From: a virus
Strand: one strand, 5' to 3'
DNA length: 64,000 nt
IMG/VR virus record: IMGVR_UViG_3300028030_000012
Span: 1-64,000 of that record
Both the position numbers and the translations under genes were made by a program. Of this stretch, positions 1-41,996 are shown piece by piece. The notes under the pieces are model-generated. The model was not told where the DNA came from. It made no database searches and worked only from the letters and a program-made list of their open reading frames with translations. Position 1 is the stretch's first letter; every line of letters starts with the position of its first letter.

Positions 1-576
1 TTTTATACCTTTATATTCCCATAATATTTGGTACTCTGAGTAATACTGTATATCTGTGAGTATGCTAGAGGGCTCTGAGAGCAATTTAGAGGCCATTTTA
101 TGAGCTCTAATGTTTGTAGCTATATCTTTTATCCGTTTAAAATCCCTAGTTGAAATTACAAGCTTATTAGGACTTGTAAGTAGGTACTTTATATAAGGCT
201 TTAAATCAGTATATAAAGTTTTAGCTTTTTCTATCCATTTTTCAGTCTTATCTGAAGGGGGTATACTGTAATTTTTAATAAAAGCTTCTCTGTAAGATTC
301 TTTTATAGTTTTCTTTTTTCTTGTTTCAACAAAGATATTACAGAATTTTTTTTGTTGAGGGGATTTTGGGATAGCGTAGTCAATTATTGCTATATCTACT
401 TTAAAGCGATCAGGCTCTAGTAGATACATATGTACAGCCGTTCCAAAATCGTAATATGATTTTTTTTCTTCTTTAGCTTCTCCATCTAAGAACTCCTTAA
501 ATTTTTTAGGGGAGTCTTCTAATATGTTTAAGCTGGAATTAGAAACATAACCTTTAAGTTCGTGATAATCAATCAT
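1..576 (-). CDS. RecE-like PD-(D/E)XK exonuclease, partial
   Basis: The gene starts at ATG 576-574 and is still open at the left edge (192 codons seen), so the C-terminus is missing. The N-terminus begins MIDYHELKG, followed by SSLNILEDSPKKFKEFL and then FGTAVHMYLLEPDRF near residues 65-80. This is the signature N-terminal segment of RecE/YqaJ-type (DUF3799-like) nucleases, in which the catalytic D...ExK residues come later and would lie outside the window. Known role of the family: 5'-3' resection for single-strand annealing recombination, usually paired with an annealase or SSB. Its start overlaps the stop of the upstream nuclease gene (ATGATTGA), which suggests translational coupling in the recombination operon. 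Confidence 0.7.
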   Translation of the reverse strand, partial: MIDYHELKGYVSNSSLNILEDSPKKFKEFLDGEAKEEKKSYYDFGTAVHMYLLEPDRFKVDIAIIDYAIPKSPQQKKFCNIFVETRKKKTIKESYREAFIKNYSIPPSDKTEKWIEKAKTLYTDLKPYIKYLLTSPNKLVISTRDFKRIKDIATNIRAHKMASKLLSEPSSILTDIQYYSEYQILWEYKGIK

Positions 577-1975
577 TTTCTTTTCTTTTTAAAAGTATAG
601 TTGCTATTACAGCATCTACATCCTTTTTATTTCTAGGTAAATACAAATCGTAAGTAATATTGTTAGTCGCTAAGTAATTTTTGAATATCTTCCATCTTAG
701 TGGAACAGTAATGTTCTTTACAGCTTTTTTAATTACTGTTTCTGTACTTTCATATGTATAGTTATTTGTACAGCTCAGACTATATCATCAGTTATTAAAC
801 TGTTCGGCGCTCTTGGGTATAGTATATTCTAAATAAATAGTTTCAATACCTAGTCGTTGAACCCACTATAGTTGTTAACTTATAGCTTGGCTGCTGATTA
901 TCTTCTTCAAGATTTTCCAGCAATTCACCGAATTTTATACGCACTTATAATTCCAGTAGTATCCTTTATAAAGTTTATTAGAATGTGTTAAAGCGTAATG
1001 CACTCCATTTTTATGAGATTTTATATTACCTCCTATTGCTCTTAAAGCTTGATTAATAGAAGGGTAATTAAATAATTCATTATTAATAGATTTTAATATT
1101 ACAGCTCTTTCTTTTTTTGAAGTAGGGGGTTTCCAATTTGAAGGAAATTTTGTATAAGACCAGTAATAACCATTAGCCATTCCTTTAACGTATATTGCTT
1201 TAGGAATATTTTTAGATGGTGTATCTGTCTTTTTTTCTGCTTCTTTAGTAGATTTAAAAATAAATTGTTTATTGGATTTTTTTTCAAAAGCGTAAATTAG
1301 TTTTCTTTTTTTCTTTTGATATTTCTTTATTTTACTGCATATAGTGTTTCCTCCTGCAGTAAGATTTAAAAGATTTGTTTTGTCTTTATAATAAGAAATC
1401 CAATACATTTCCCTCTCATTTAATTTATCTCTTTCTACTTCTTCTAATAATTCTATTAATGGAAATTTTCCTTGTTTAAATAATTTTCTAAACCAGTGTG
1501 TTTTAGGAATATTATATTTTCCATTATTTCCATACAAAGTATCATATATATGTGTAGCCATTCTTCTTTTTAAAAGTTGAATAGTTTGTCCAATATATCT
1601 GATTTCATTTGTATCAGGATTTTTTAATACGTATATCTTTCCTTTCATAACTAGTTTTTACTAATATACGGGAAAGACTACCGAAAGTTATACTATTTTT
1701 TATGCGTCATTCATCATACCTTTGCACTCTATAATAAATTCTTTACCTGAAAAATCAGGTAAGAATGTCATGGCTCTAACTTTTTCACCATTGTATTGAA
1801 AAGGTTCTACAATTGTAAACTTAAGTTTTTCGTAATTTGTTTCTAGATTATGTTTTTGTAGTTGTTGGTAACAATAAGTTTCAAGTTTACTTTTGAAATG
1901 AATATTGTCATAAATGTTTGGTTTTACATTTCTTACTTTTTGATTCCCCGTAGTTTTCTTACGGCGTCGAATCAT
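569..1975 (-). CDS. Intron-split small PD-(D/E)XK endonuclease (DUF1064-like)
   Basis: Exon 1 runs from ATG 1975 to about 1713 and holds FKSKLETYCY, FLPDF and IIECKG, the E...PD...ExK pattern of small PD-(D/E)XK nucleases. The reading frame then stops, but after a group I intron core the same fold resumes. Exon 2 (about 770 to stop 569) encodes VPLRWKIFKNYL, matching the R-x-K-x-x-x-F helix that follows the ExK strand in this family. The joined product is about 154 aa. The 3' splice site is probably after G771 and the 5' site near 1713. I could not confirm the 5' site through P1 pairing, so the boundaries are approximate. Likely role: nuclease in phage recombination or replication. Exon 2 overlaps the next gene start by 8 nt. 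Confidence 0.65.
771..1712 (-). ncRNA. Group I intron (IA-type core) carrying a GIY-YIG ORF
   Basis: Read on the minus strand, the segment after the GIY-YIG ORF contains the group I core in order: AATTGCTGG (plus-strand 917-929, P3/P4), AATCAGCAGCC (889-900, P4-P6), GGTTCAACGACTAG (849-863, P7 5' strand) and GATATAGTCTGA (774-788, P7 3' strand). These are the conserved P, Q, R and S elements of phage group IA introns. The endonuclease ORF sits upstream of P3, in the P1-P2 region. The intron lies directly after the ExK motif of the host nuclease. Length is about 940 nt. The exact ends are inferred from reading frame and the terminal-G rule, not from a proven P1. Confidence 0.8.
935..1648 (-). 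CDS. GIY-YIG homing endonuclease (intron-encoded)
   Basis: 237 aa. Residues 4-22 read KIYVLKNPDTNEIRYIGQT, the GIY-YIG signature, followed by LLKRRMATHI with the conserved arginine and by NEREMYWISYY with the catalytic glutamate. The lysine-rich C-terminal half contains two AINQALRAIGG/KEAEKKTD-like segments resembling nuclease-associated modular DNA-binding repeats. The ORF lies entirely inside the group I intron, so its likely job is to cut intronless alleles of the host nuclease gene and drive intron homing. Its start follows the intron 5' part by about 65 nt, and its stop lies just ahead of the P3/P4 core. Confidence 0.85.
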   Translation of the reverse strand: MKGKIYVLKNPDTNEIRYIGQTIQLLKRRMATHIYDTLYGNNGKYNIPKTHWFRKLFKQGKFPLIELLEEVERDKLNEREMYWISYYKDKTNLLNLTAGGNTICSKIKKYQKKKRKLIYAFEKKSNKQFIFKSTKEAEKKTDTPSKNIPKAIYVKGMANGYYWSYTKFPSNWKPPTSKKERAVILKSINNELFNYPSINQALRAIGGNIKSHKNGVHYALTHSNKLYKGYYWNYKCV

Positions 1976-31845: not shown

Positions 31846-34800
31846 ATGAAAGCTGAGTTAAAAGTAACAAAGAACAGTAATAAATTTAGAAAACCTGCAT
31901 TACACTATCAAAAATATGACCAGTATTTGTTTGCTCCACAAGGCACTTCAGAATATGTAAAATACTGGTCTACAGAATATGATAGGTGTAAATTTGGTTA
32001 TACAGCTGAGGATGGTGATTTCATCCCCGGCTATTTTTATTTCTACTTGAATTACTTTCCTATTAGTCTGATTAAAGAGGTTGAGGTAGAAATAGGGGTA
32101 GGTAAAACAAGTAGGAGGGCTTCGGCTATACGGGACTTTCCTAGTTTTTATGATTATGACAGGTTTTTCTTTGAGTCTATAGAGAATTGTGAAGAGGAGG
32201 GCAAACACCTTATAGTTCTAAAAGCTCGTCGTAAAGGGTATAGTTACAAAATAGCTTCAATGTTATTACGCAACTATTATTTTTTTAGAGGTTCTAAAGG
32301 ATTTGCCCTAGCTGCAGAGGCAGAGTTTTTAGTAAAGGACGGTATTCTAACTAAGACTTGGGATGGCATGGACTTTTTAGATCAGCATACCGCTTGGTTT
32401 AAAAAAAGGCAAGTTAAGAATACTATGATGTGGCGTAGAGCCTCTTTCTTACAAAAAGATGACACTGGTGTAGATATTGAAATAGGCTACAAGTCTGAGA
32501 TAATGGGGGTTACTTTAAAGAATGATCCTCAGAAAGCTAGGGGTAAAGGCGGCCGGCTTATTATATTTGAAGAGGCTGGTAAGTTTAGAAACCTATTACA
32601 AGTATGGCAAATTGCGAGACCCTCTGTAGAACAAGGCTCTTTTGTACAAGGGACAATGATTGGTTTTGGATGTACGTTAGCGGGTACAAAGCTTTATACC
32701 AAAGAGGGTAGGTTAGTTAATGTAGAAGATTTAAAAATAGAGAGTGGGACTATAGGTTATAATGGATATTCTCATGAGAAGGAAGATATTGTAGGTACCC
32801 TTTTTAGTTTTAAAAAACAGAGTTATAAAATTACATTGAATTCTGGTAGGTTTATAGAATGTAGTTATGACCATCCTATGCTATTCAGTAAAAGGGATTT
32901 ACAAGAGAGAGTGCCTGGGTTTAGAGGAGAAGGGCTGAGGCGTAAAAAAGTAAAATGGGCAAAAACTGAAGATTTAAAAATAGGGGATCAATTAGCTGTT
33001 TTAGAAGAATTTCCTTTTGAATCAAATAAAGAAATGTGGGAACCTCGTTTTATAGGGTTACTTATTGGAGATGGTTCTTATGGTTATAATAAAACACCAG
33101 TACTATCTAATGCTGATGAAGAAGTTAATTCTTTTATAGATGATAGATTTAACACAGTAATAGAAAAATCTTATATTACAAAAGATGGTAGACTATATAG
33201 AGAAACTAGAATAAAAGGAATTACTAAAAAATTACGGGGACTAGGGATCTATGGGCAAACTAAAAATAGAAAAGCTTTTCCCATTGATATACATTCTTAT
33301 TCTGAAAATACTGTTACAGAAATATTAAGTGGGTTTTTTGATGCTGATGGGTATATTTATCAAACAAAAACAGGGCGTATTAGAATTAATTTTTCTTCTT
33401 CTTTTGATTTACTATTAGAAGTGCTTTATTTATTACAAAGATTGGGTATACATGGTAAAATACATTTTATAAAAGATGAAAGAAAAAATAGAAAAATAAA
33501 AAGTAATGGGGGGTACTATAGACTTTCTATAGAAGATCTTAAGAGTTTACTTGTATTTTCTACTAAAATAATTTCACTTATTAATAGGAAACAAACCCTT
33601 TTAAATAAAATAGTTGGGTATGCATCTGTACATGAAAGTTCCTTAAGTAAATATATTTCTGGTATAAGATTCGAAAGGATTGTAAAAATAGAAGATTTAG
33701 GGGAACAGCCTGTTTATAATTTGCAAACTTCGAACACTCATACCTATATCGCTAATGGTATTGTAACTAAAAACACAGGGGGTGAGGAAGGCGAAGATTT
33801 TGATGGTCTTAAAGAATTGTTTGAGAGGCCTAAAGCATACAATTGTTTAGAGTTAGATAATATATGGGATGAGGAAAATATTGGTCAAAAGGTAGGATTC
33901 TTTGTACCACAGTATGCTAACTTAGAAGGGGAATATTATAATGAGGATGATAAGGATGACCCTTTAAATGGAGAGCCCTTTATGGATGATCAAGGTAATA
34001 CTAGAACTTTAGTAGCTAAGAAGTATGTGCTATTACAAAGGTCAAAAGTAATAAAGAATGCTTCAGATAGACGTGCTATAGATAGGCATATTGCTGAGCA
34101 GCCTATAATACCTGCAGAAGCCCTACTTGATTTAAGTTCTAATATATTCCCTAAAGCTGATTTGCAAAGGCATTTAGCTCATATAAGGAATGACGAAAAG
34201 TTACGTCAGTTTAAACAAGTGGGAGATTTATATTTTGATAATGAAGGTATTATAAAGTGGATGCCTGTAGAAGCTGATAAAGCTAAAGATATTATAAGGT
34301 ATCGTTTAGATCCGCAAGACGACCCTAAGGGTCAAATAGTAATATGGGAACACCCTATGAAAGCCCCTCCTTGGGGCTTATATATAGCAGGCTGTCTTAC
34401 TCCAGGTGAGAAAGTAAATACTTCAGAAGGATTAAAGAATGTGGAGGATGTAACACTAGAAGATAAACTCATAAATAAAGAAGGGGAAGAAGTCGAAATA
34501 AATACTTTATTAAGATATGAAAAAGTAAACGAACCTACTTATAAAGTGCATATGTATAATGTGGATAGGCCTACTAATTATACACAAGAACATCCTTTAT
34601 ATGTAGCAGATATTCCTGAAGGTAAGTTCGATTTTATAAGGGCAGAAGAAGTTGAAAAAGGCATGTGGACTAAAGCTCCTAATTATTATAAAATAAATTC
34701 TAAAGAGATTGATACTACTATTTGGGATAATTATAAAACTAGAAATACAAAAGATACTAATCCTTTGTTAGATGAAGATTTTTGGTGGTTTGTAGGACAT

Positions 34801-36180
34801 TGGTTAGGAGACGGGTTCAATCATAAACAAGGGAGAAATTATACTATTTACAATTCTTTCGGTAAAAAAGAAACTGATTATATAGACAAGTATAAAAGAA
34901 TTGTTAAAGAACTTTTTAATAGAAATCCTAATCCCAAAGTTCAAAATGGATCTGGTACGCATAAGTTTGAATTTAAACAATTATTCTTATTCTTAGAAGA
35001 TAATTTTGGTAAATATGCCGATGGTAAGTATATTTCTGAATGGGTTAAGTATATACCTGAAGAATATAAACTTCAATTAGTTTTAGGATATTTAGATTCT
35101 GACGGATCTGTTTATTTAGATAACAATAGAATAGTTAGTAGTTTTAAAAGTATTAATAGAAAATTACTTTATGATATACAAGACATTTTATTTTCGGTAG
35201 GAATTGTATCTAGTTTTCATTTGTCTGAAAAGAAAGGGAAATACAATATTAAGGGGAAAATTGGAAATAGAAAAGAAAGTTATCGTTTAAGAGTGAATCA
35301 GACAAATACTGTAAAATTATATAATTTATACAATTCTTTATACAATAGTAGAAAATTAAAGTTGATAGGAGTTAATAAAAACGGAATAAATTTTGTTAAA
35401 AGCAGAGGTTGTCAAATGTCTGAGGATTTAACTTATATTTACATTAAAATAAAAAATATAGAAGTGTCTACATATTCGGGTACCGTTTATAATTTTGATT
35501 GTAAAACACACAGTTTTATATGTCAGTACTTCTCGGGACATAACTGTGACCCCTATGATCACGATAAATCAGGGACTAATTCTTTAGGTTCTACTTTTAT
35601 ATTTAAACGAATACAGAGTTTTGAAGAATATTATGATATGCCTGTAGCAGAGTATACTGGTAGGCCGGATACTGCAGCAGAATATTATGAGAATGTTCGT
35701 AAATTACTTATGTATTATAATGCTACTTTATTATATGAAAATGAGAAGAAAGGTTTATTCTTTTATTTTGAAAAAGTAAACGCCACTTATTTATTAGCAG
35801 ACCAGCCTAATGATTTAATAGGAGATATTGTAAAAGATAGTAAAGTAGACAGGAAAAAAGGAATCCATATGTCTCAGTTTATTAAGGACTGGGGAGAGGG
35901 TGCAATAAGGGACTGGTTAGTCGAAGAGTTTGCCCCAGGTAAAAAGAATCTTACCAAAATAATGTCGGAACCTTTATTAGAGGAACTCATAGCCTACAAT
36001 GATAAAGGTAATTTCGATAGGGTAATGGCATTCATGTTGGTCATGATGTACCGACAACAACTGCATAAGTTGCATGTTAAGAAAAATCGTTTGGAAAATA
36101 AAAAGCGCTTGTTATTTCCTGATGGTTTATTTACAGGCTATGATGATGAGGAAAATTATACGTATAACATTTCAATTTAA
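31846..36180 (+). CDS. Terminase large subunit with two inteins
   Basis: 1444-aa precursor. Removing inteins 276-643 and 850-1233 leaves a 692-aa terminase. The ATPase has Walker A-like ARRKGYSYK (127-135) and Walker B LIIFEEAG (238-245). The coupling motif reads GFG|TGG and is split by intein 1. The RNase H-like nuclease begins YIAG|CDPYDHD, split by intein 2 directly before its first aspartate block, and continues with a YENEKKG segment carrying the second acidic site. Role: ATP-driven DNA packaging and genome cutting. Both inserts are in frame, so activity depends on protein splicing. Confidence 0.92.
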   Translation: MKAELKVTKNSNKFRKPALHYQKYDQYLFAPQGTSEYVKYWSTEYDRCKFGYTAEDGDFIPGYFYFYLNYFPISLIKEVEVEIGVGKTSRRASAIRDFPSFYDYDRFFFESIENCEEEGKHLIVLKARRKGYSYKIASMLLRNYYFFRGSKGFALAAEAEFLVKDGILTKTWDGMDFLDQHTAWFKKRQVKNTMMWRRASFLQKDDTGVDIEIGYKSEIMGVTLKNDPQKARGKGGRLIIFEEAGKFRNLLQVWQIARPSVEQGSFVQGTMIGFGCTLAGTKLYTKEGRLVNVEDLKIESGTIGYNGYSHEKEDIVGTLFSFKKQSYKITLNSGRFIECSYDHPMLFSKRDLQERVPGFRGEGLRRKKVKWAKTEDLKIGDQLAVLEEFPFESNKEMWEPRFIGLLIGDGSYGYNKTPVLSNADEEVNSFIDDRFNTVIEKSYITKDGRLYRETRIKGITKKLRGLGIYGQTKNRKAFPIDIHSYSENTVTEILSGFFDADGYIYQTKTGRIRINFSSSFDLLLEVLYLLQRLGIHGKIHFIKDERKNRKIKSNGGYYRLSIEDLKSLLVFSTKIISLINRKQTLLNKIVGYASVHESSLSKYISGIRFERIVKIEDLGEQPVYNLQTSNTHTYIANGIVTKNTGGEEGEDFDGLKELFERPKAYNCLELDNIWDEENIGQKVGFFVPQYANLEGEYYNEDDKDDPLNGEPFMDDQGNTRTLVAKKYVLLQRSKVIKNASDRRAIDRHIAEQPIIPAEALLDLSSNIFPKADLQRHLAHIRNDEKLRQFKQVGDLYFDNEGIIKWMPVEADKAKDIIRYRLDPQDDPKGQIVIWEHPMKAPPWGLYIAGCLTPGEKVNTSEGLKNVEDVTLEDKLINKEGEEVEINTLLRYEKVNEPTYKVHMYNVDRPTNYTQEHPLYVADIPEGKFDFIRAEEVEKGMWTKAPNYYKINSKEIDTTIWDNYKTRNTKDTNPLLDEDFWWFVGHWLGDGFNHKQGRNYTIYNSFGKKETDYIDKYKRIVKELFNRNPNPKVQNGSGTHKFEFKQLFLFLEDNFGKYADGKYISEWVKYIPEEYKLQLVLGYLDSDGSVYLDNNRIVSSFKSINRKLLYDIQDILFSVGIVSSFHLSEKKGKYNIKGKIGNRKESYRLRVNQTNTVKLYNLYNSLYNSRKLKLIGVNKNGINFVKSRGCQMSEDLTYIYIKIKNIEVSTYSGTVYNFDCKTHSFICQYFSGHNCDPYDHDKSGTNSLGSTFIFKRIQSFEEYYDMPVAEYTGRPDTAAEYYENVRKLLMYYNATLLYENEKKGLFFYFEKVNATYLLADQPNDLIGDIVKDSKVDRKKGIHMSQFIKDWGEGAIRDWLVEEFAPGKKNLTKIMSEPLLEELIAYNDKGNFDRVMAFMLVMMYRQQLHKLHVKKNRLENKKRLLFPDGLFTGYDDEENYTYNISI
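32671..33774 (+). other. Intein 1 (LAGLIDADG) in TerL
   Basis: 368 aa. Starts with Cys276 (CTLAGTKLYTKEGRLVNVED, block A). Block B is CSYDHPML. Endonuclease blocks LLIGDGSYG and GFFDADGYIY follow, and the C-terminal HTYIANGIVTKN precedes Thr as the +1 residue. The penultimate residue is Lys rather than His, a non-canonical but tolerated variant. The insertion point is inside the terminase coupling motif (GFG|TGG). Confidence 0.9.
34393..35544 (+). other. Intein 2 (LAGLIDADG) in TerL
   Basis: 384 aa. Starts with Cys850 (CLTPGEKVNTSEGLKNVED). Block B is TQEHPLYV, the endonuclease blocks are VGHWLGDGF and LGYLDSDGSVY, and the canonical C-terminus is SGHN followed by Cys as +1. It is inserted immediately before the DPYDHD nuclease active-site motif. 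All splice-junction residues are canonical, and both acidic DOD residues appear intact. Confidence 0.93.
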
Positions 36181-39703: not shown

Positions 39704-41996
39704 ATGACTAATACAGTTCTTAACGGATTACAGCTGTACCGTGCCAAATGGTTTTCAGATTTAGTAGATGAGAATATGTTATCAAATGCTTTGATGACAA
39801 AACCTCACGAAGTTTCTACTATACTGTCTTATGTATTTGGTACTTATGAAAGTAGTGTAATCGACTTCCTGACCTCAGGATTAGGAAAAACAGTTACTGT
39901 TGAAAACAGACAGTACGAATGGCCAGTTATGATACAACATGACAAAGCCATTGAAATATTTGATGCTAAGTGGCAAGGTGCGGCTATTACCGATAATCTT
40001 ACACCAGGCATAAACCAAACTCCTATACTTTTGTATTTGAAAGAAAAGTGGTTAACCAATGGGCTGAGCCACGCTGCATAGTAATATGTAGAAAAATAAA
40101 TTTCGTGAATTGCTGGAAACTCTTAAAGATATTTAGACCGTAGAGTAATACTTAAATATATAGAGATGAAAATTAAAAATAGACAATCAGCAGCCGAGCT
40201 AGTAGAAATGAAACCAATTCCTGGATGGGAAGATTCCTATTCTATAACTGAAGATGGAAAAGTTTTTTCAAATAGAAGTAACAAATTTTTATCCCCTAGA
40301 GAATCAATGGATGGGTATAATAGAGTTGCTTTACAAAAAGAAGGTTATAGGAGAGAATATAGAATAGCAAGATTAGTAGCTATTACATATATTCCAAATC
40401 CAGAAAATAAAGAACAAGTAAACCATAAAGATTATAATAGAAAAAACGATTTTATAAATAATCTAAAATGGGTTACCCCAAAAGAAAATACAGACTATTC
40501 CTTTAAAAAAGAAAGTAGGTTTAAAATACCTGAAACTTATAAAGTCTATACTTTTACAAATGTATTTAACAATAATTCATTTACAATAATAGGAATTAAA
40601 AATGTAGCTAAACAATTTGGATGTTCTGCTAAAAACTTTAAAGCACTAATTACAAAATATGCCAATACTGGTATGTACGTAAAACAAGGTTACTTTAAAG
40701 GACTTAGAATTGATTCAGACTACTTGAAGGTTCAGAGACTATCCGAAAGGAGTACACTCTAGTGAGTGGAAGTGCGAAACATCCCTAGTGGATGAAGATA
40801 TAGTCCGATCTCATGTGAGAGCATGAGCAGCTTAAAAAGCGGGTAGGGAATAACGCCCCCTACTGAACATCAACAGAAATGTTGGCCCAGGCGCAATCTT
40901 GGCTTTTGATGAACGTGAGTTTCAGGTAAGAGTTTCAGGCGCCCCTTATCAAGATGGTGATTATTTTGTATACACTGTTTTTGTAGCCGATGGTAGATCG
41001 GAATCTTATATTCCGCCTGAGCTATTGGAAAAAAGTAAAAGGGTAAGCCGTGAAGGCTCTGCTTACGAAGAGTACAGTGATGAGTCAGATATCGTGAATT
41101 ATAATACTCCATTGAAGTTAAGGAATCACCTTACTACAATGAGATTATCTTATGATATTACAGGTTCTGCTTATTCGTCTAAGATGGTAATCGAGATGAA
41201 AGATCCTAAAACAGGAAAATCATCTTATCTATGGTCTGATTATCAGGAGTGGGTGGCCCTACGTCAATGGTATCAAACAATGGATCGTTTCTTAGTTTAT
41301 TCTAAGTATAACGCTAATCCAGACGGTACTACTGATTTAAAAGGTACTAATGGACGTCCTGTATATATTGGCGCTGGTTTGTTACAGCAGATTGCTGCTT
41401 CTAACCGTCAATCCTATACAAAACTGACAGCGGATCTACTTGAGGATTATCTCTTCAATTTGTCTTATAACATCATGGCCAAAGGGGAGCGTAAGTTTGT
41501 AGCTCTTACAGGTGAGATGGGAATGAAAGAATTTGACCGTATACTTAAAGAAAAAGCTTCAGGTTACCAATTAGTTGATACTAAATTTGTATCAGGTTCT
41601 GGGCAAGAGCTTACTTTAGGCGGGCAGTTCACTACTTATAAAATGCTCAATGGCATAGAACTTACATTGAAGCACTTCCCATTGTATGATGATATTGTAT
41701 ATAATCGTAGTTTACACCCAGTTAGTGGCAAGCCTTTAGAATCTTATAGGATGACCTTTGTTGACTTTGGAATGCGTGATGGCGAATCCAATGTGCAGAA
41801 AGTTGTTCGTAAAGATCGTGAGATGGCTATGTGGCATATTGCTGGTTCTGTAGCTCCAGGTACTGGACATGCAAAATCTAAATCAACTCTTCGTGCTAAT
41901 GCTAAAGATGGTTATTCAGTTAACTTCTTAACAGAGCAGGGAATCATGATGAAAGATCCTACAACGAGTGGGGAATTAATCATGGATATTGCCTAG
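39704..41996 (+). CDS. Major capsid protein, interrupted by a group I intron
   Basis: Exons 39704-40052 and 40882-41996 join to 487 codons. Joining reads LKEKW|FGPGAILAFDEREF in frame, so the intron splits the Phe codon. Exon 2 holds VRVSGAPYQDGDYFVY and a long conserved capsid region. The size and these segments match crAss-like HK97-fold capsid proteins. Without splicing, exon 1 would stop after 125 aa. A start at TTG 40899 would make a truncated protein and is not supported. A strong terminator follows. Role: icosahedral shell. Confidence 0.88.
40053..40881 (+). ncRNA. Group I intron in the capsid gene
   Basis: 829 nt. Core elements in order: AATTGCTGGAAACTC (about 40107-40121), AATCAGCAGCC (40185-40195), GGTTCAGAGACTA (40729-40741, P7 5') and GAAGATATAGTCC (40793-40805, P7 3'). 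P1 can be drawn as exon GTGGT paired with intron GCCAC (40067-40071) with a U-G pair at the 5' splice site. The intron ends in G40881. The joined codons restore the capsid frame, which independently supports both sites. Confidence 0.9.
40166..40762 (+). CDS. HNH homing endonuclease in the capsid intron
   Basis: 198 aa (or 184 aa from ATG 40208, which gives a more typical NUMOD4 start, MKPIPGWEDSY). A NUMOD4 domain (IPGWEDSYSITEDGKVFSN) is followed by HNH motif VNHKDYNRKNDFINNLKWVT and a C-terminal modular DNA-binding helix (IKNVAKQFGCSAKNFKALI). It overlaps the intron core at both ends: the P4-P6 strand lies at its start, and the P7 5' strand is read as VQRLSER. Role: mobility of the intron into intronless capsid genes. 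Confidence 0.85.
   Translation: MKIKNRQSAAELVEMKPIPGWEDSYSITEDGKVFSNRSNKFLSPRESMDGYNRVALQKEGYRREYRIARLVAITYIPNPENKEQVNHKDYNRKNDFINNLKWVTPKENTDYSFKKESRFKIPETYKVYTFTNVFNNNSFTIIGIKNVAKQFGCSAKNFKALITKYANTGMYVKQGYFKGLRIDSDYLKVQRLSERSTL

Follow-up and report, generated by a model that had tools for sequence, protein, structure and literature searches.

The window analysed here, a stretch of 64,000 nucleotides, is part of a virus record of 68,097 bases (IMG/VR IMGVR_UViG_3300028030_000012), and its capsid protein and nuclease both have their best named relatives among the Crassvirales. On the minus strand of this crAss-like phage, a DUF1064/PD-(D/E)XK nuclease gene, adjoined by a primase gene, is interrupted by a group I intron of 996 nt (1701..706) that contains an open reading frame of its own:

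1702..1975, minus strand, exon 1 of the DUF1064/PD-(D/E)XK nuclease, 274 nt, MIRRRKK...ECKGMMNDA plus T
706..1701, minus strand, group I intron, 996 nt, 5' end AAAAAATAG, 3' end the omega-G at 706
1631..1681, minus strand, predicted RNA hairpin in which the ORF start codon is paired, -15.8 kcal/mol, z -2.6 to -2.9
935..1648, minus strand, GIY-YIG homing endonuclease gene, 237 aa, in the P1 loop
569..705, minus strand, exon 2 of the nuclease, 137 nt, FPLRWKIFKNYL...KEND stop

Joined, the two exons encode a single 136-aa protein, which matches Pfam DUF1064 (PF06356) with 46.5 bits (cut-off 24.7; exon 1 alone gives 38.6 bits) and phrog_190, a Holliday junction resolvase family, with E 1.7e-12; exon 2 overlaps the 5' end of the next gene (ATG at 576). 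The first-pass annotation had taken the stretch 569-1975 of the minus strand for an intron-split small PD-(D/E)XK nuclease and was right in this, both exons lying inside the interval. The alignment with intronless DUF1064 nucleases that it had recommended was made with six relatives devoid of the insertion (L001-L003, which are the crAss-like phages cr125_1, cr50_1 and cr115_1, and L007-L009 from IMG/VR), all of them aligning over the entire length of the joined protein. It fixed the join at donor 1702 and acceptor 705, the top-scoring of 1,824 in-frame stop-free joins when set against the six homologues (2211, with 2197 for the runner-up) and, among the 14 joins listed, the only one in which the intron is preceded by U and has G (G706) as its final base. 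The junction reads ECKGMMNDA-F-PLRWKIFKNYL, exon 2 starting with TT-CCA (F-P-L-R-W-K), and the joined product around it is ECKGMMNDAFPLRWKIFKNYL; the join proposed earlier, ECKG directly followed by RWKIFKNYL, was about eight residues off, MMNDAFPL having been omitted. The proximity of the intron to the nuclease active site, also pointed out before, is confirmed, as the insertion lies beside the E-x-K (ECK) motif, which fits the expectation that a homing site should be found in a conserved stretch of a gene. The 5' splice site falls within a TAA stop codon (T|AA); most group I introns have an in-frame stop immediately downstream of the 5' junction, according to the available sections of PMC3073962 (and, similarly, PMC3984707). 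Among the matching phage records inspected (the best 60 and an evenly spread, overlapping 60 of 162), every match runs in one piece across the site, so no other record listed there has an intron at this position of the nuclease gene.

The intron possesses the conserved core P3-P4-P5-P6-P7-P8 with the P, Q, R and S blocks. The elements from P6 to the S block are drawn from the covariation alignment and the sequence, and P9 is read in the sequence, its stem being present also in the predicted fold:

939..944, minus strand, internal guide sequence GUGCGU, within the final sense codons of the ORF, AAG TGC GTA then TAA
926..932, minus strand, P3 5' strand UUCGGUG, partner CGCCGAA 809-803
892..922, minus strand, P4-P5-P4' (P and Q blocks), UGCUGG 922-917, P5 hairpin 912-901, CAGCA 896-892
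866..885, minus strand, P6 hairpin
851..862, minus strand, R block GUUCAACGACUA, P7 5' strand
816..850, minus strand, P7.1 hairpin GGUAU...AUACC
789..809, minus strand, P3' CGCCGAA 809-803 and P8 802-789
776..785, minus strand, S block, P7 3' strand
742..773, minus strand, P9 hairpin CUGUAC...GUACAG

All four core blocks, already recognised on this strand in the first-pass annotation, are present (P from 925, Q from 899, R 862-851, S from 786), and the assignment was borne out by cmscan of the region 400-2100, which placed Intron_gpI (RF00028) at 981..755 with 70.7 bits (gathering 50, E 1.6e-17). The Rfam run over the whole window, made with fast filters at the gathering threshold, gave 0 matches, which is due to the filters and not to the score. 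In the alignment of 32 distinct cores 92.2% of cells pair, both sides change in 23 of 36 pairs, and covariation amounts to 0.549 as compared with 0.163 after shuffling (0 of 500 shuffles reach 0.549) and at most 0.110 when slid, these values being read on an aligned structure that was drawn on the window sequence and favours the window structure somewhat. Covariation is strongest in P3 and P5; P4 is invariant because it is fixed by the search pattern. Subgroup IA group I introns have P7.1/P7.2 between P7 and P3'; the P7.1 stem is kept in 80.8% of cells of our alignment. As to the 3' side, P10 is weak by sequence, consisting either of UU/AA beside the guide only or of GGAA (954-951) with UUCC (705-702) six bases off, as opposed to the clear P10 (AACU/GGUU) of the cr50_1 dUTPase intron. 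A stem 738-706 (CAGUAAU/AUUACUG), possible by eye, would tie up the omega-G; it is not formed in the MFE fold of 800-706, whose stability does not exceed that of shuffles (z 0.21).

The last six bases of exon 1, ACGCAT, make up the 5' strand of P1 and pair with the guide as ACGCAU/GUGCGU, the U at the exon end forming U.G; this pairing (T1702/G944) is the sole one of at least 6 bp at the homology-defined exon end. The guide lies six bases before P3 and inside the last codons of the ORF, hence the endonuclease gene sits in the P1 loop. The placement of P1/P2 within the end of the ORF by Rfam was rejected, as the homology-defined splice site is 757 nt further upstream. The product of the ORF, identified as a GIY-YIG protein from the start, matches GIY-YIG (PF01541) with 26.9 bits (cut-off 22.6), phrog_314 homing endonuclease with E 1.8e-07 and, weakly, the solved catalytic domain of I-TevI (E 0.05). 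The search of IMG/VR with this protein returned 1 distant relative, and its relatives in phages (18 records) have mainly the catalytic domain in common with it. The ORF, which the first-pass annotation put before P3, does lie there and, more precisely, precedes and overlaps the internal guide sequence.

We propose that this element is a mobile group I intron from a lineage that is common in phages, residing in the DUF1064 nuclease gene of a crAss-like phage, carrying a GIY-YIG homing gene in its P1 loop and being removed at the RNA level to give the 136-aa nuclease, and we put the probability of this reading at roughly 93%. Its core, P1, join and open endonuclease frame are established by sequence comparison; the intron is presumably self-splicing and capable of homing, and its translation presumably interacts with its splicing. 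The RNA would fold into the P3-P8 core, the exon end ACGCAU would define the 5' splice site by pairing with the guide GUGCGU, the omega-G at 706 would set the 3' site, and the exons would be ligated as D-A-(T|TT)-P-L-R-W. Judging by its family, the GIY-YIG protein should cut intron-less copies near the conserved site, the intron being copied in during repair. With the gene placed in the P1 loop and the guide within its last codons, a ribosome completing the endonuclease would cover the guide. The hairpin at the start codon and the stop codon straddling the splice site probably prevent ribosomes from running into the ribozyme, by analogy with T4 td/I-TevI, where a hairpin hides the ribosome site of I-TevI and its alteration harms splicing (available sections of PMC3073962; similarly PMC3984707).

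A decayed intron, in which the ribozyme is dead and the phage makes only a 91-aa truncated nuclease retaining the E...PDF...ECK residues, would agree with the stop codon at the junction and with the DUF1064 match of exon 1 alone (38.6 bits), as well as with the weak P10 and the possible stem that ties up the omega-G. However, decay would erode the core, the exon 2 frame and the ORF, and we find all core helices intact, P1 fully paired, the exon 2 frame open and close to its homologues along the entire length, and the endonuclease ORF open for 237 codons, which makes a dead ribozyme very improbable.

The second group I intron of the window, that of the capsid gene, was delimited against the intron-less capsid genes L020 and L023:

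40053-40881, plus strand, capsid-gene group I intron, guide GCCAC
40166-40762, plus strand, HNH/NUMOD4 ORF of the capsid intron, overlapping the Q and R blocks

Capsid exon 1 ends with AAGTGGT (40052), and capsid exon 2 starts with TTGGCCC (40882). An insertion motif GCAT|TT common to both introns was considered and abandoned, as the same intron-less genes move the capsid site to AAGTGGT| (40052). The earlier placement of the capsid ORF between P6 and P7 is roughly correct, except that the ORF also overlaps Q and R. The two introns appear to have been acquired separately, as had been suggested before; this is the better reading of the sequences, supported, though not proved, by their different sites, ORF families and ORF positions and by cores that are nearer to introns of other phages. 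In a comparison of 126 core columns, the nuclease intron reaches 70% likeness with dUTPase and ATPase introns of other phages (those of cr50_1 dUTPase and FPSV-F12) and 64% with the capsid intron of the window, while the latter is 73-75% like the capsid introns of cr118_1 and cr50_1. Transfer of one intron inside the genome with a later swap of the endonuclease could account for the identical P and Q blocks and for a 34-base stretch of the capsid intron that is 89% like the nuclease intron, but the 64% likeness of the two cores, the closer affinity of each to introns of other phages and the difference in P-Q spacing (27 in the nuclease intron vs 78 in the capsid intron) leave little room for it, and we regard it as highly unlikely. 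Elsewhere in the window, the large terminase frame (1444 aa, 31846-36180, plus strand) contains an intein (Intein_splicing 51.5 bits, LAGLIDADG_3 68.5 bits) and, near residues 857-939, a weak second Hint-like match (17.2 bits, below the cut-off).

The idea of two genes, one for a free-standing GIY-YIG protein and a small separate one in place of exon 2, with a chance group I likeness between them, is hardly credible, although free-standing homing endonucleases do occur in crAss-like phages and one is annotated beside this nuclease in cr125_1: the separate start of exon 2, a point raised by the first-pass annotation, is absent, with no ATG, GTG or TTG in its frame between the upstream stop and PLRWK and no minus-strand ORF of at least 40 aa ending at 569, which disposes of a separate gene, and, besides, the joined protein is colinear with its homologues and Intron_gpI is matched with E 1.6e-17.

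The P1-loop position of the gene was examined further by a search with the core pattern, which yielded 74 viral and 4 genome contigs or, together with the window, cr50_1 and FPSV-F12, 81 rows, several of them being copies (the intron of L080 is that of cr50_1, and near-identical contigs recur). The rows were assigned to groups by hand and then checked: 31 represent a single capsid-gene intron that has no gene in its P1 loop, 6 contain an exon only, 8 are at a contig edge or lack a 5' homing ORF, and in 36 a homing-type ORF is present 5' of the core (17 HNH-like, 10 GIY-YIG, 5 LAGLIDADG and 4 without a Pfam family). The last 36 form 28 clusters of similar sequences, and Pfam analysis of one member per cluster found HNH_3 above the cut-off in 10 and below it in 4 (L037, L048, L094, L098), GIY-YIG above the cut-off in 5, LAGLIDADG in 5 and no family above the cut-off in 4 (L040, L057, L060, L064). 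The 5'-side ORFs of these last four have a common C-terminal GGYTEAF and are perhaps an undescribed type of homing endonuclease. The ORF continues beyond the start of P4 in 29 of the 36 rows, the ribozyme core being translated as a tail like GELLENPEEDNQQPS; the ORF of the window ends just after the guide. This core-derived tail is common to homing genes of different families and can be mistaken for a conserved protein domain. In L030/L085 a GIY-YIG ORF remains open across most of the core, as far as +275 from P4. Intron-split dUTPase genes with an HNH gene in the P1 loop are present in L013 (1540-3000), L039, L066, L067, L086 and L094, and in the cr50_1 record (L013) both dUTPase exons are annotated as two dUTPase genes.

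The P1 loop can be assigned firmly only where the splice site is fixed, that is, in 7 rows and the L101 group. In all seven introns with protein-fixed splice sites (that of the window and the six dUTPase introns whose 5' splice site could be set by reading the protein) exon and guide pair at 6 of 6 positions across 531-757 nt; these seven include four different exon/guide combinations, and swapped partners pair in 0 of 34 cases. L101, a Bacteroidales MAG contig, has a gene-less dUTPase intron with a 19-nt P1 loop at the site shared with L037, L062, L069, L090 and L093 (in L062 the 5' ORF is not open). In the FPSV-F12 intron the P1 loop is 11 nt long, and the ORF follows the S block. The helicase introns L043/L055/L076, with a GIY-YIG gene, and the gene-less L050/L074 were dropped as a comparison of P1 loops with and without a gene because they seem to have GGAA, close to the 5' end, as their guide, together with a P2 hairpin, so that the gene may follow P1; L043/L055/L076 probably use a different guide, and the cleaner pair is L101 versus L037, L069, L090 and L093. 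P2 of the helicase introns covaries (GCCG/CGGC, GCUG/CAGC), and L050/L074 retain the apparent last codons of a lost gene.

A broader proposal, which we advance tentatively and consider rather doubtful, is that of a widespread phage group I intron lineage, including the present intron, whose P1 loop has been colonised repeatedly by at least three homing families (HNH, GIY-YIG and LAGLIDADG), the guide and often the P3-P4 core being encoded as the C-terminal tail (..GELLENPEEDNQQPS) and the endonuclease of the nuclease gene ending exactly at the guide. Endonuclease synthesis and recognition of the 5' splice site would then be mutually exclusive on each RNA and act as a switch between homing and expression of the host gene. 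The P1-loop arrangement allows one to test whether translation of the endonuclease competes with splicing, and gene-bearing and gene-less introns at one site provide a natural test of how a homing gene can enter a ribozyme without blocking splicing.

Frequent group I introns in crAss-like phages are already known. In the delta group they were found in the MCP, PolB, primase and ATP_43b genes, the PDDEXK gene not being named as split in the available portion of that paper (Yutin et al. 2021, PMC7886860); the accessible part of a review (PMC10136315) repeats this statement and places PDDEXK nucleases in the structural and replication blocks. Our case adds the nuclease to the host genes given in that portion. 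Such genes are easily missed, since the intact nuclease emerges only when two exons 1 kb apart are put together, and the intron escaped the Rfam run over the whole window. No description of a homing gene in the P1 loop of a phage intron was found in the literature searched, as far as its accessible text goes, and within these limits the arrangement may be unreported in phages. In introns of Bastillevirinae, ribozyme elements overlap nuclease genes (PMC11878797, available part).

The crAss-like capsid introns (window, cr118_1, cr50_1) differ from the nuclease intron in site and sub-lineage, in the guide, which is near their 5' end, and in the ORF, which, where present, is in the core domain. 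Closer is the cr50_1 dUTPase intron (NC_055868; L013), alike in core type and spacing (P-Q 27, Q-R 36) and in having its endonuclease gene between the 5' splice site and the guide, with a 6-bp P1 across 688 nt; in contrast to the window, it interrupts a dUTPase gene and encodes an HNH protein whose ORF runs on through the core, whereas the window ORF stops at the guide. Like T4 td/I-TevI, the nuclease intron is a phage group I intron with a GIY-YIG endonuclease, in which the end of the ORF adds to the ribozyme structure and ribosome access is restrained by a hairpin, presumably so in the window (for T4, available sections of PMC3073962), but the ORF of I-TevI, located in the P6 loop, overlaps P6a/P7, while that of the window, located in the P1 loop, overlaps the guide. 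A homing gene in the P1 loop is shared with fungal mitochondrial introns, e.g., the upstream intron of Hypomyces aurantius cox3-i2, which, as the accessible part of PMC4964425 describes, differ in having LAGLIDADG motifs and in belonging to mitochondria and not to a phage.
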